Assembly (NCBI GenBank): GCA_016124845.1
Contig: WGMW01000013.1
Coordinates: forward strand, 1 to 46,063
Length of the DNA: 46,063 nucleotides
Origin: Flavobacteriales bacterium
GTDB taxonomy: Bacteria > Bacteroidota > Bacteroidia > UBA10329
Direction: 5' to 3'
Part shown: in pieces, positions 18,495-23,427 of the stretch
How the letters are laid out: each line of letters begins with the position of its first letter
How positions within the stretch are numbered: position 1 is the stretch's first letter
Notes under the pieces: model-generated
The model's database searches: none
What the model was told of the DNA's origin: nothing
The model's input: only the letters and a program-made list of their open reading frames with translations
Translations under genes and position numbers: made by a program

Positions 18495-19498
18495 TTGAAA
18501 CGCTCCTTCGATAGGTTCAACCACTCCAAACTCGAATTACAGAAAATATCCTCAACGGTTTGCTGTGGGAGGTTCATTTCTTCAATGAATTTACCGATCT
18601 CGAGATCTCCGAGTGGGAATGGGTAATCGCTTCCGAGACAAACACGGTTCGAGCCCGTTTTCTTGAGGATGAACTCCAACGTATCTGCATCGTGTGTAAT
18701 GCAATCGATCCAGAATTTGCCGAGATATTCCTTCGGGTTAACGTCATTATCGATGGCCACAAGATCGGGGCGACAGTTGAATCCGTGTTCAATTCTCCCG
18801 ATTGTGGGTATGAAAGAGCCGCCAGCATGGGCAAAGCAGACGCGCAACTCGGGCAGCTTTTCAAAGATTCCAGCAAAGATCATGGAGGTGATTGCCCGTG
18901 ATGTCTCAGCTGGCATACCTACCAACCACGGCAACCAATATTTCCGCATCTGATCCATTCCCATCATGTTCCAAGGATGGACGAAAACCGCCATTCCGAG
19001 GTCTTGACACGCCTCAAAAATGGGATAGAATTCAGGCTCGCTCAGGTTCTTGTCGTTGATGTTCGAGCCGATCTGTACACCTGGGAAGCCTAATTCCTTA
19101 CATCGCTCCAATTCCTTAATGGAAAGGTCTGTGTCCTGCATTGGAAGCGTTCCCAAACCGATATAATTCTTCTTGTATGGCGCGATGGATTCCGCCAGAT
19201 CTTCATTCAGAAAACGGGCCACCTCCGCACCATCTTTCGGGCGTGCCCAATACGAGAAGAGAACTGGAATTGTGCATACAACCTGAACCTGCGTATTGTA
19301 TTCCTCATACTCCGAAATCCGTGTCTCAGGATTCCAGCAGTTCTCTTTGATCTTTCGGAAGAAGCGTTTGCCCTGCATCATGTTGGCTTCGCCAGGCGCT
19401 ACATGATCGAGCATGATGAAATCACCATAGCCGAACTTGCGTGCGAAATCGGGCATTTCACGCGGCATGATGTGCGTATGCATATCGATCTTAAGCAA
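18491..19498 (-). CDS. 2-amino-3-carboxymuconate-6-semialdehyde decarboxylase (ACMSD)
   Basis: 335 residues from TTG 19498, which overlaps hemB by 8 bp; the first ATG is five codons later and would cut into the conserved IDMHTH. The zinc set of this amidohydrolase family is complete: H7 and H9 (MHTH), H174 (FVHPWNMMGMD), the catalytic H224 (CFAHAGG) and D291 (GSDYPFP). Blocks such as VLFSYWARP, KYWLPWLVGMPAET and LGTLPMQ are characteristic of ACMSD, the branch-point enzyme of tryptophan degradation by the kynurenine route, which diverts carbon away from NAD. No other kynurenine genes are in the window. Its placement between hemB and a GT2 gene is odd. Confidence 0.92.
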   Translation of the reverse strand: MLKIDMHTHIMPREMPDFARKFGYGDFIMLDHVAPGEANMMQGKRFFRKIKENCWNPETRISEYEEYNTQVQVVCTIPVLFSYWARPKDGAEVARFLNEDLAESIAPYKKNYIGLGTLPMQDTDLSIKELERCKELGFPGVQIGSNINDKNLSEPEFYPIFEACQDLGMAVFVHPWNMMGMDQMRKYWLPWLVGMPAETSRAITSMIFAGIFEKLPELRVCFAHAGGSFIPTIGRIEHGFNCRPDLVAIDNDVNPKEYLGKFWIDCITHDADTLEFILKKTGSNRVCLGSDYPFPLGDLEIGKFIEEMNLPQQTVEDIFCNSSLEWLNLSKERFN

Positions 19499-20474
19499 GC
19501 TTCCCGTCTTTCAGCATTTGTGCGTATTCCTTCGCAAAATAGGTGAGAATGGCCGTGGCACCCGCACGCTTGATGCTCAACAACATTTCGGGCATGGCCT
19601 TATCGTAATCCAACCACCCTTTCTGTGCCGCAGCTTTCAGCATAGCGTATTCTCCACTCACGTTGTAAGCCGCAATCGGCAACTCAAACTTTTCCTTCAG
19701 CAAATGAATGATGTCGAGATACAGCATCGCGGGCTTTACCATGAGGAAGTCCGCTCCTTCAGAAGCGTCCAATTCTGCTTCACGAAGAGCTTCCCACTTG
19801 TTGGCAGGATCCATCTGGTAGGTTTTTTTGTCGCCAGCTTTCGGGGCACTTTCCAACGCATCGCGGAACGGACCATAATACGCGCTTGCGTACTTTGCCG
19901 AGTAACTCATAATACCCACATTCTCGAAATCCGCATCATCCAATTCTTCTCGGATGTGCTGCACTCTGCCATCCATCATATCTGACGGACCGATGATGTC
20001 AATTCCTGCTTCAGCCTGCGCCACGGCCATTCTGCCAAGAATATCCAGCGTTTCATCGTTCAAAATGCGGCCGTCTTCCACCAATCCGTCATGTCCATCA
20101 GAACTGTACGGGTCCATCGCCACATCGCTCACCAAGCAACCTTCAGGAAATTCCTTTTTCAGCTTCGCGATAATGCGCAGATAGAAGTTCTTCTCATCGT
20201 AACTGTATGTGGCTTCCTTGTCCTTCAGACTTTCTTCCACCGCAGGAAACAGCACAAACGACCGAAGTCCGAGGTTCATGCTCTGCTCCACTTCCTTCAA
20301 CACTTGGTCTTCCGAAAAGCGGAAAATGCCTGGTAACGAACCGATCTCGTCTCGTTTTCCTTTTCCGTCCACCACAAACAGCGGATAAATGAGGTTGGAA
20401 AGGTCGAGGCGGGTTTCGCGCACCATGCTGCGGATGGCTTCGGTGGCGCGGTTTCGTCTGGGTCGTTCAAGCAT
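19491..20474 (-). CDS. hemB: Delta-aminolevulinic acid dehydratase / porphobilinogen synthase
   Basis: 327 residues, full length. HemB joins two 5-aminolevulinate molecules to make porphobilinogen for haem. The two active-site lysines are visible: K194 in SYSAKYASAYYG and K247 in FLMVKPAMLYLD. The metal region reads DVAMDPYSSDGHDG, without the cysteine triad, so it belongs to the zinc-independent, magnesium-type class. It is the first gene of the twelve-gene minus-strand cluster and overlaps ACMSD by 8 bp. The 65-bp gap upstream is a divergent promoter region; TACTTTTA on the minus strand is one base off a -7 box. Confidence 0.95.
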   Translation of the reverse strand: MLERPRRNRATEAIRSMVRETRLDLSNLIYPLFVVDGKGKRDEIGSLPGIFRFSEDQVLKEVEQSMNLGLRSFVLFPAVEESLKDKEATYSYDEKNFYLRIIAKLKKEFPEGCLVSDVAMDPYSSDGHDGLVEDGRILNDETLDILGRMAVAQAEAGIDIIGPSDMMDGRVQHIREELDDADFENVGIMSYSAKYASAYYGPFRDALESAPKAGDKKTYQMDPANKWEALREAELDASEGADFLMVKPAMLYLDIIHLLKEKFELPIAAYNVSGEYAMLKAAAQKGWLDYDKAMPEMLLSIKRAGATAILTYFAKEYAQMLKDGKLA

Positions 20475-20519
20475 TGTCTGAGAATGTCGGCTAAAAGTAC
20501 AAAGCTCCGATCAACCCGT

Positions 20520-20528
20520 TAGTTTTGC
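20520..20528 (+). promoter_or_regulatory. Candidate -7 element of the ABC transporter operon
   Basis: TAGTTTTGC matches the Bacteroidota -7 consensus TAnnTTTG, 11 bases before ATG 20540, so the leader would be very short. No clear -33 TTTG is seen at the expected spacing. No obvious Zur- or Fur-type palindrome is visible in the 65-bp gap. Confidence 0.35.
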
Positions 20529-20539
20529 AGGGCTAAGAA

Positions 20540-21166
20540 ATGCTACAGACCGAAGACCTTTCTTTCAGCTACGCGAACGGACCGCGTTTTTCGTTCCCGA
20601 ACCTATCCGTCAAGGCGGAAGAAGTGCTGCTGGTGCTTGGCCGCTCGGGAAAAGGCAAAACGACCTTGCTTCACCTTTTGGCGGGATTGATGGAGCCGAA
20701 TTCCGGTTCGGTTTCGATTGATGCACAATCCATTACAGAACTGAAAGGCAGCAATCGTGACAGCTTTCGCGGAAAGAATATCGGAATGGTTTTCCAGCAG
20801 GCGCAGTTCATCCGTTCGGTCAGTGTGATGCAGAATTTGCAGTTGGCACGTTCGTTGGCGGGTCTTCCGAATGATGAAAATTTCGCGAAGCAACTACTAA
20901 CTGAACTTGGCATTGCGGACAAGGCCAACAACCGCCCAAGCGAACTGAGCATTGGCGAACGTCAGCGGGCTGGGATTGCGCGGGCATTGGTCACACAACC
21001 GAAAGTTGTTTTGGCAGATGAACCAACCTCCGCTTTGGATGACGAGAACTGCCAATTGGTTGCCGATCTGTTGCAGAAAACCGTAACTGGTCATGGTGCT
21101 GCTCTCATCATCGTGACACACGACCAGCGTTTGAAAAACCGCTTTCCATACTCGGTGGAAATATGA
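20540..21166 (+). CDS. LolD/MacB-type ABC transporter ATP-binding protein
   Basis: 208 residues. Complete ATPase: Walker A GRSGKGKTT (34-42), Q-loop FQQAQF near 86-90, signature LSIGE (136-140), Walker B VVLADEP (156-162) and the H-switch in IIVTHDQRL near 193-201. The closest functional class by sequence is the LolD/FtsE/MacB group, which drives mechanotransmission rather than classical import. First gene of a four-gene operon; it overlaps the permease gene by 4 bp. Confidence 0.92.
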   Translation: MLQTEDLSFSYANGPRFSFPNLSVKAEEVLLVLGRSGKGKTTLLHLLAGLMEPNSGSVSIDAQSITELKGSNRDSFRGKNIGMVFQQAQFIRSVSVMQNLQLARSLAGLPNDENFAKQLLTELGIADKANNRPSELSIGERQRAGIARALVTQPKVVLADEPTSALDDENCQLVADLLQKTVTGHGAALIIVTHDQRLKNRFPYSVEI

Positions 21167-22362
21167 AAATGCTGCAGCTTGCATACGCCAATCTGAAGGA
21201 GCATTTCCTCACAACTTCGCTTAGCGTCATGCTGCTTTCCATCGGTGTGGGAATGGTGAGTTTCATCGTTACCGTAAGCGGGCAACTGAACGACCGCTTC
21301 AACCGTGACATCCGAGGAATTGATATGGTTGTTGGCGCCAAGGGAAGTCCACTGCAACTTATTCTTTCGGCCGTTTATCAGATTGATAATCCAACCGGAA
21401 ATATTCCATTGAGCGAGGTAAGCAAAATTCAGCGGCATCCGTTGGTGAAATACAGTATTCCGCTTTCGTATGGCGATAGTTACCAAGGCTTTCGAATTGT
21501 GGGAACCGACACGCTTTATCTGTCTCATTTCAAAGCCAAATTCCGAGAAGGGAAACCTTGGCAAAAAAGTATGGAAGTGGTGCTTGGAAGTACAGTTGCC
21601 GCGCGCTTGGAACTGAATCTTGGTGACCATTTTCACGGAACACACGGTTTTGAAAAGGAAGGTCAGGAACATGAAGAAAAACGTTACTCCGTTGTTGGGA
21701 TTCTTGAACCGACAGGAACGGTTGCTGACCGTTTGATCCTCACCTCCACCGAAAGCGTATGGGACATCCATCATCACGAAGAAGCGCATGATGAGTCTGC
21801 CGAACACCATGAAGAATCTGCGCAGATCACTGCGTTATTGGTCAAGTTCAAAAACCCGATGGGCATGATGCAGCTTCCGCGTTTCATCAACGAAAAAACA
21901 TCCATGCAGGCCGCGCTTCCAGCCATCGAGATCAATCGTTTGTATGAATTGATGGGAATCGGTTTCAGTACGCTTCAAACCATCGGAATTCTCATTATGA
22001 TCATTGCTGCTTTGAGTGTTTTTATTTCGTTGCTCAATTCATTGAAAGAACGCAAATACGAACTCGCTCTGATGCGATCTTTGGGGGCTTCTCCTGCCAA
22101 ACTGTTCGCTTTGGTCATTCAGGAAAGCCTGTTGCTGTGTTTGGCGGGATACGTTTTTGGCATCATCTTGGGTCGAATAGCGATCATGACACTTTCATCT
22201 TTCGGAGAAGAACAATTTCATTTCAGCGTGTCGCAAAGTGGTGTTTCTGCGGTAGAAATTTGGCTACTGCCCCTCACGCTTGGTGTAGGTCTGGTCGCGG
22301 CCATTATTCCCGCCATCCGTGCTTATCGTTCAGACATTTCAACCATTCTGAGAAATGAATAG
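21163..22362 (+). CDS. FtsX/MacB-type ABC permease with histidine-rich periplasmic domain
   Basis: 399 residues. One N-terminal membrane helix (about 17-40), a large periplasmic domain (about 45-265) and three C-terminal helices with the coupling region ERKYELALMRSLGASP, the type VII ABC layout. Two segments of the periplasmic domain are rich in His and Glu: about 155-175 (GDHFHGTHGF, then QEHEEK) and 198-220 (WDIHHHEEAHDESAEHHEE). Such runs suggest metal binding, zinc being the commonest ligand partner. It overlaps the ATPase by 4 bp and the next gene by 8 bp. The function is inferred only. Confidence 0.9.
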   Translation: MKMLQLAYANLKEHFLTTSLSVMLLSIGVGMVSFIVTVSGQLNDRFNRDIRGIDMVVGAKGSPLQLILSAVYQIDNPTGNIPLSEVSKIQRHPLVKYSIPLSYGDSYQGFRIVGTDTLYLSHFKAKFREGKPWQKSMEVVLGSTVAARLELNLGDHFHGTHGFEKEGQEHEEKRYSVVGILEPTGTVADRLILTSTESVWDIHHHEEAHDESAEHHEESAQITALLVKFKNPMGMMQLPRFINEKTSMQAALPAIEINRLYELMGIGFSTLQTIGILIMIIAALSVFISLLNSLKERKYELALMRSLGASPAKLFALVIQESLLLCLAGYVFGIILGRIAIMTLSSFGEEQFHFSVSQSGVSAVEIWLLPLTLGVGLVAAIIPAIRAYRSDISTILRNE

Positions 22363-22990
22363 TGCCTTTTTTCCCTTGAAGAATAATCCCCCGTCCCGTA
22401 AAGTTCCGCAAGCTCCACTTTCGGTCCACCCCCTTTTGAAGGGGGAACTGGCCGGTTCCTCCTTTACAAAGGAGGTGCCGAGGGACGAGGCGGAGGATTT
22501 GTCTATCGCGAAAAAACGATCATTCCCGATTTGCAGGATCAGTAAACATCAGTGTTCATTGCCTTTTCTCGTTTTCTCCTTTTTCCTGATTTCGCTGCAA
22601 AGCATCGCGCAGCACAAAAAAATTGATTGGTCGTTACTTGCAAAAGTTGACTGGGAAGACCGCTATTTCCCTGCGTATGACGAAACCGTGTGGTATCCTG
22701 ATTTCAGCAAGGAGGTTCTGGCACTTGACAGCATACTGGTGGAAATCGAAGGCTACATCATTCCCATTGATATTGAATCCAATTATTACGTGCTTTCTGC
22801 CAACCCGTACACCAGTTGCTTCTTTTGCGGAAATGCGGGCCCGGAAAGCGTGGTTGAGCTCCAGTTTGCCAACAGACCGGACAAAACATTCAATGCCGAT
22901 GACATTGTCACATTTCAAGGTCGGTTAAAACTGAACTGGGACGACCTTGAACATTGTAATTATATCTTGCGCAACGCTAAAGCGAAATGA
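22355..22990 (+). CDS. Exported CFFCG-motif protein (DUF3299-like), 5' part altered by a palindromic repeat
   Basis: 211 residues from ATG 22355, which overlaps the permease stop. Residues 10-49 are encoded by a palindromic repeat (22385-22500), and the hydrophobic signal core (LPFLVFSFFLISLQSIAQ) lies only at residues 69-86. A signal peptide cannot normally sit so far in, so translation may really begin at TTG 22559. After cleavage the protein is about 125 residues: IEGYIIPID, then SANPYTSCFFCGNAGPESV and a DIVTFQGRLKLN end. It is a paralogue of the next gene. The CxxC could bind metal or be redox-active. Similarity to DUF3299 is my judgement, not a search result. Confidence 0.75.
   Translation: MNSAFFPLKNNPPSRKVPQAPLSVHPLLKGELAGSSFTKEVPRDEAEDLSIAKKRSFPICRISKHQCSLPFLVFSFFLISLQSIAQHKKIDWSLLAKVDWEDRYFPAYDETVWYPDFSKEVLALDSILVEIEGYIIPIDIESNYYVLSANPYTSCFFCGNAGPESVVELQFANRPDKTFNADDIVTFQGRLKLNWDDLEHCNYILRNAKAK
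22385..22500. repeat. Palindromic repeat element inside the start of a CFFCG gene
   Basis: 116 bp bounded by AATCC at 22385 and GGATT at 22495-22499. It contains CCCCCTTTTGAAGGGGG (22429-22445), the near-palindrome AACTGGCCGGTT (22446-22457) and CCTCCTTTACAAAGGAGG (22458-22475). Repeats with this order of words are scattered in many Bacteroidota genomes. It is read through in frame. Confidence 0.7.
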
Positions 22991-23427
22991 AACTCTTGTT
23001 TTCCATTCTTTTTACCCTGTCGGGCGGATTCGTTTCAGCTCAAACCCTGGTGAGCTGGAACACGTTTGCACAGGTCAAATTCCATCGCGAATATTCCGAA
23101 ACATTCGGTTTTGAAGTGAACGTGAAACCACCTGAATTCTCGGATGAATTGATGGCTTTGAACGGAAAAGAAATACGAGTTAAAGGCTACGTGATTCCTG
23201 TGGATGTGGAGCTTGGTATGTACATGGTTTCGGCCAACCCGTTTGCCAACTGCTTCTTCTGCGGAAACGCAGGACCTGAAACCGTTGTAGAATTATTCCC
23301 TGGAGGAAAATTCCCTCGATTCGCCACTGATCAGATGGTCACCTTCAAAGGTGTTCTGCAGATCAATACCCAAGGAGAAATGAATGCAGTGCCGTATCAG
23401 CTCTTCCAGGCGGAAGTGGTGAAATGA
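22987..23427 (+). CDS. Exported CFFCG-motif protein (DUF3299-like), intact copy
   Basis: 146 residues with a clean signal peptide (MKLLFSILFTLSGGFVSAQ). The mature protein is a close relative of the upstream gene product: VKGYVIPVDVE, then SANPFANCFFCGNAGPET and MVTFKGVLQIN. The shared CFFCGNAGPE block, with two cysteines two residues apart, is the only strong motif. It overlaps the preceding gene by 4 bp, so the ATPase, permease and both exported proteins form one operon. Its stop abuts the stop of the convergent gene at 23428 with no base between. It is probably the substrate-side partner of the ABC transporter; whether it carries metal is not shown. Confidence 0.82.
   Translation: MKLLFSILFTLSGGFVSAQTLVSWNTFAQVKFHREYSETFGFEVNVKPPEFSDELMALNGKEIRVKGYVIPVDVELGMYMVSANPFANCFFCGNAGPETVVELFPGGKFPRFATDQMVTFKGVLQINTQGEMNAVPYQLFQAEVVK

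Follow-up and report, generated by a model that had tools for sequence, protein, structure and literature searches.

The closest described relatives of the operon analysed here are the ZrgABCDE system of Vibrio cholerae and V. parahaemolyticus and the PA4063-PA4066 gene set of Pseudomonas aeruginosa. In V. parahaemolyticus, zrgB and zrgC encode an ATP-binding cassette (ABC) permease and its ATPase and zrgE encodes a DUF3299 protein, and the genes are strongly induced by zinc starvation (PMC9817125). Growth under zinc limitation is worsened by the loss of zrgABC in V. cholerae (PMC9820375) and of zrgA in V. parahaemolyticus (PMC9817125). The P. aeruginosa genes, ordered ZrgA-ATPase-permease-DUF3299 and with only 2 histidines in the permease loop, are regulated by Zur, and a MacB-type export of pyochelin-cobalt was proposed for them (PMC8561739, PMC11481552). 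We analysed a 46,063-nucleotide stretch of DNA (the window) from contig WGMW01000013.1 of a Flavobacteriales bacterium, in which four forward-strand genes at 20540-23427 encode an ABC ATPase, a permease and two exported proteins, named CF1 and CF2, that share the motif CFFCGNAGPE. On balance, we consider it probable that this operon represents the Bacteroidota branch of the envelope metal-handling family formed by Zrg and PA4063-PA4066; the link to Vibrio Zrg made in the initial annotation agrees with the published functions of zrgB, zrgC and zrgE (PMC9817125).

The four open reading frames (ORFs) were found where the initial annotation had placed them, with successive overlaps of 4, 8 and 4 base pairs. 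The operon is real and conserved: both CFFCG genes occur in 7/8 other genomes of the genus in the order permease-CF1-CF2, with the ATPase gene 5' of the permease gene wherever the contig extends far enough. A scan of genome contigs with one protein returned two loci of the same lineage only. The first gene (20540-21166, +) encodes a 208-amino-acid ATPase of the LolD/MacB/FtsE type, similar to ZrgC/PA4064, which matches PF00005 (ABC_tran) with 116.8 bits. The second (21163-22362, +) encodes a permease of 399 amino acids, similar to ZrgB/PA4065, whose assignment to the type VII (FtsX/MacB) class is borne out by Pfam matches to FtsX (60.7 bits) and MacB_PCD (41.0 bits).

A tblastn search of plasmid records with the permease returned proteobacterial permeases with 27-33% identity over about 98% of the length, and a profile comparison for the permease gave an expectation value (E) of about 1e-72. 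Against a Pseudomonas copy of the gene set, with the order DUF2796 (ZrgA)-ATPase-permease-DUF3299, the permease is 29% identical over its full length (E 6e-53) and the ATPase 36% identical over 200 amino acids. The relative in Phaeobacter is ordered Fur-DUF2796-ATPase-permease-DUF3299, the Catenovulum locus contains MerC, DUF3299, ATPase and permease genes, and a Thermus plasmid carries a CPFCS protein beside the same ATPase and permease. The gene for this CPFCS protein (L055:2851-3318), annotated merely as a shorter hypothetical protein, lies directly 5' of the ATPase and permease genes, and its product matches our CFFCG profile, described below, with E 1.6e-13. Judged from their sequences, the ATPase and the permease are thus members of the Zrg / PA4063-PA4066 family. 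Two other labels were rejected. The name LolD-like, given earlier to the ATPase, holds as a similarity but not as an equivalog assignment, since the ATPase scored 169.9 bits against a LolD cut-off of 307.75 and the permease 61.2 against a LolCE cut-off of 362.45. MacAB-TolC was also discarded, because the ATPase gene is separate and no adaptor or channel is found in the operon or among the recurrent neighbours.

CF1 (22355-22990, +; a 211-amino-acid ORF with a signal peptide from about residue 66) and CF2 (22987-23427, +; 146 amino acids) are 40% identical over 126 amino acids, as expected from the paralogy noted at first reading. In the Pfam search CF2 matched DUF3299 (PF11736) with 14.1 bits, under the gathering threshold of 22, and CF1 had no match to this family. 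With a CFFCG profile built from 30 relatives, the best match in the PDB was PA4066 (4hsp), the DUF3299 protein of P. aeruginosa (E 0.0033), and the alignment places the first cysteine of CFFCG opposite the cysteine of the PA4066 CIH motif. The AlphaFold2 model of CF2 (predicted local distance difference test, pLDDT, of 77) has an OB-type fold, and its top Foldseek match was again 4hsp (E 2.7e-4, probability 1.00, template-modelling score about 0.43). Proteins of the same phylum that adjoin the same permease and carry GCMHVPPP or GCCYSIPP motifs match DUF3299 with 52-58 bits and also match the CFFCG profile (E 1e-7 to 1e-12). Since 4hsp ranks first by profile and by fold, and these intermediates bridge both groups, the CFFCG proteins appear to be a divergent DUF3299/OB-fold branch in which CxxCG replaces CxH. 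The DUF3299 proposal of the initial annotation thus stands as a remote homology supported by profile, fold and intermediates, but not as a Pfam assignment. In one locus (L063, G133:C7:266500-280500) four CFFCG paralogues are clustered beside the permease gene, with a Zur-like Fur gene among them.

The distribution of these genes was surveyed in 392 genomes of the phylum Bacteroidota, a neighbourhood survey that had been suggested with the initial annotation. The permease was detected in 65/392 genomes and the CFFCG proteins in 57/392, and no CFFCG genome lacks the permease (57/57; Fisher P 2e-60, shared ancestry ignored); the pattern that the initial annotation had named as refuting was thus not seen in Bacteroidota. 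The co-occurrence persists in several genomes, at least seven, in which the permease and CFFCG genes are unlinked. Most of the 8 permease-only genomes have, at a laxer cut-off, a more divergent DUF3299-like gene adjoining the permease gene, a neighbour found in six loci.

The periplasmic part of the permease is a distinctive feature of the Bacteroidota branch. The His-rich segments reported at first reading were confirmed: residues 155-176 and 199-223, together 47 positions, contain 10 of the 14 histidines of the protein (hypergeometric P 1.4e-7). The first stretch, rich in His and Glu (21625-21690, +), contains the near-invariant H161-G162 and H170, and the second (21757-21831, +) contains the invariant H203, followed by a His/Asp/Glu-rich loop specific to Bacteroidota. 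Across 78 permeases from Bacteroidota, Proteobacteria and Thermus, H161 is conserved in 78/78, H170 in 77/78 and H203 in 78/78. The loop after H203 has a median length of 55 residues in Bacteroidota and contains at least 3 histidines in 66/73 permeases (median 7, up to 33), often in tandem runs of the HDHE type, against 1-2 histidines in 5 relatives from other phyla. Loops built of tandem HDHE-type units, with up to 33 histidines, were seen in four loci (for example L040:6325-7800, -), and their length varies widely among species, suggesting rapid slippage. An AlphaFold model of the permease from 3 sequences was rejected (pLDDT 40) and gives no spatial positions for H161, H170 and H203.

A search for ZrgA (DUF2796) gave no match over the cut-off in any of the 76 operon-bearing genomes, the present one included, and returned only sub-threshold matches, mostly interrupted. 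We infer from the anatomy of the loop and the absence of ZrgA that the conserved histidines form a putative metal site on the permease and that the loop may gather metal in the place of ZrgA. The likeness to Zrg includes, beside a MacB-type permease, an ATPase and a remotely DUF3299-like periplasmic protein in one operon, a His-rich periplasmic segment suited to gathering metal and an association with zinc genes. The operon differs in that ZrgA and ZrgD are missing, that the His-rich segment lies within the permease, and that two OB-fold CFFCG proteins stand where Zrg has one with a CIH motif.

The same features bear on the explanation that the operon encodes a machine acting on lipoproteins or lipids or activating proteins, like LolCDE, YbbAP or FtsEX, with thiol-redox OB-fold partners and incidental His-rich loops. 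The nearest solved permeases are LolF, YtrF, MacB and LolC/E, with which our proteins share the transmembrane part and the ATPase class but not the partners, here DUF3299-like OB-fold proteins rather than a lipoprotein chaperone, MacA or TolC; a CxxC could be a redox motif. However, the HG...H / H triad is kept across phyla and, as far as the sequences can be aligned, no such histidines are present in the corresponding periplasmic stretch of LolF. This explanation also accounts for neither the His-rich loops nor the zinc-gene neighbours, and the DUF3299 relatives have CxH or a similar motif where the CFFCG proteins have CxxC. We therefore regard this explanation as very improbable.

The zinc link proposed in the initial annotation finds its support in the neighbours of the family. 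COG0523 (CobW-domain) genes lie within 10 kilobases of a permease or CFFCG gene in 18 of 70 copies from 15 genomes, where 0.53 would be expected (P 1e-22), and five of the loci pair them with isolated CFFCG genes distant from the permease gene. One of these neighbours, tested against the model of the zinc chaperone ZigA, scored 567.5 bits for a cut-off of 600. The COG0523 family is known for the allocation of metals in the cytoplasm. A divergent Fur class adjoins the operon or the CFFCG genes in 5 genomes and is more common in genomes with the permease (39/65 vs 93/327, P 2e-6, shared ancestry ignored). We infer that it is Zur-like; its matches to the NCBIfam PerR, Zur and Fur models were all weak. 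MerC-family genes recur as neighbours in several loci. An ORF with a MerC-like N-terminus and a DUF3299-like C-terminus was found 5' of the same permease gene (L105:4104-4994), possibly a fusion that ties MerC to the transporter system.

For the present organism the picture is different. The genome is 98.9% complete and encodes a single Fur protein, a housekeeping one, which was the only match (22 bits) in the search for a Zur-like gene, and no COG0523/CobW-type gene was detected in it; Zrg differs in this respect too. Because neither a Zur-like nor a COG0523 gene was found, zinc control is not supported here, and the zinc link is supported by neighbours at the level of the family and unproven for this organism, in which the metal could be another. 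The literature search turned up no paper on Zur and COG0523 in Bacteroidetes. Together with these two absences, several observations weigh against the metal-handling interpretation: 7/73 Bacteroidota permeases have fewer than 3 histidines in the loop, the Catenovulum permease has neither a His-rich loop nor a nearby ZrgA gene, so that the two are not strict substitutes, PA4066 showed no evident zinc binding (PMC11481552), so that metal binding may be lacking in the CFFCG proteins as well, and type VII transporters usually pass no substrate across the membrane (PMC12646458), which makes simple import doubtful.

Taking these points into account, we propose the following working model for the operon as an envelope metal-handling system. 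In type VII transporters the ATP cycle moves the periplasmic domains. The ATPase and the permease would form such a machine, with the fold of MacB/LolCDE, and ATP hydrolysis cycles would drive the periplasmic domains of the permease. These domains may bind Zn2+ or a similar divalent metal via H161, H170 and H203, with the His/Asp/Glu-rich loop gathering metal locally, the role of the separate His-rich ZrgA in Proteobacteria. The two OB-fold CFFCG proteins would be docking partners of the permease that hand metal over to it or take metal from it, probably via the CxxCG knuckle. Judged from the family neighbours and the Vibrio and Pseudomonas data, the net effect may be to aid the use of scarce zinc in the envelope. 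Import, export and a periplasmic hand-over are all possible directions of transport, and periplasmic metal handling is favoured. A more specific form of the model, in which the permease itself is the metal receptor in Bacteroidota (three histidines plus a fast-evolving loop replacing ZrgA), the CxxCG OB-fold proteins are zinc carriers dedicated to the periplasm and the machine relies on mechanotransmission instead of classic ABC import, is put forward tentatively, as something we would not yet bet on.

High-affinity zinc import, in which the permease and the CFFCG proteins capture metal that then enters the cytoplasm, a route also argued for ZrgABC, is a sub-case of this model with an inward direction, and the two do not exclude each other. 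The growth defects of the Vibrio mutants under zinc limitation (PMC9820375, PMC9817125) and the COG0523 neighbours speak for import, but type VII structures lack a path across the membrane (PMC12646458) and the zinc content of P. aeruginosa mutants did not differ to a relevant extent (PMC11481552), and we find it rather doubtful. Export in turn would have the loop recognise complexed metal and the machine expel a metal chelate, a metallophore or an excess metal complex from the periplasm or the membrane. The permease has MacB-type domains and belongs to the family of PA4065, whose mutants accumulated cobalt and intracellular pyochelin, yet pyochelin export persists in these mutants (PMC11481552). 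Export also fits poorly with an operon and recurrent neighbours among which a MacA-like adaptor, an outer-membrane channel and genes for metallophore biosynthesis are all absent, and with conserved neighbours that are zinc chaperone and regulator genes; for these reasons it appears unlikely.

Upstream of the operon, a putative Bacteroidota-type -7 promoter element, TTAGTTTTGC, lies at 20518-20527 (+), about 13 nucleotides 5' of the first ATG. The Bacteroidota -7 consensus is TAnnTTTG. The same element is kept in three other loci of the genus and TAnnTTTG occurs 5' of the ATPase gene in two more; in the alignment of the intergenic regions this -7-like element is conserved and nothing else is. 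The hemB gene (19491-20474, -) is divergent from the operon, with a gap of 65 base pairs to its start, an arrangement also found in 4 of the same-genus genomes. It appears to encode the zinc-independent type, with DVAMDPYSSDGHDG and no cysteines, and in an unrelated family a hemB of the same type (L133:4587-5567) is separated by one gene from a gene for a CFFCG protein. In one genome of the genus the operon is split by an ORF of 389 amino acids (MQMVEAQFSHFDLK...) between the ATPase and permease genes (L029:4169-5338).

An interspersed repeat with 19 matches in the genome has an in-frame copy near the 5' end of CF1 (22415-22501, +), which reads PLLKGELAGSSFTKEVPRDEAEDL in the CF1 frame. This copy falls within the first 65 codons or so, after the permease stop, and separates the overlapping ATG from the signal peptide. 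In two close relatives the signal peptide directly follows the same ATG, which points to the 8-base-pair overlap between permease and CF1 as an ancestral trait, and three other loci have different N-terminal extensions at the spot of the repeat. Where CF1 truly starts in this genome is uncertain, because the signal peptide begins only after the in-frame repeat.

The Zrg-type family was known; what is new is a branch with the His-rich loop in the permease, without ZrgA and with CxxCG in the place of CxH. How a machine of the MacB/LolCDE type, a class not known for moving ions, acts in zinc starvation is a disputed question, with import argued in Vibrio and pyochelin-cobalt export in Pseudomonas. 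The Bacteroidota branch reduces the system to what is common to Bacteroidota, Proteobacteria and Thermus, that is an ATPase, a permease and an OB-fold partner, and singles out three near-invariant histidines of the permease that can be mutated directly. The location of the His-rich loop within the permease argues for metal handling at the permease itself.

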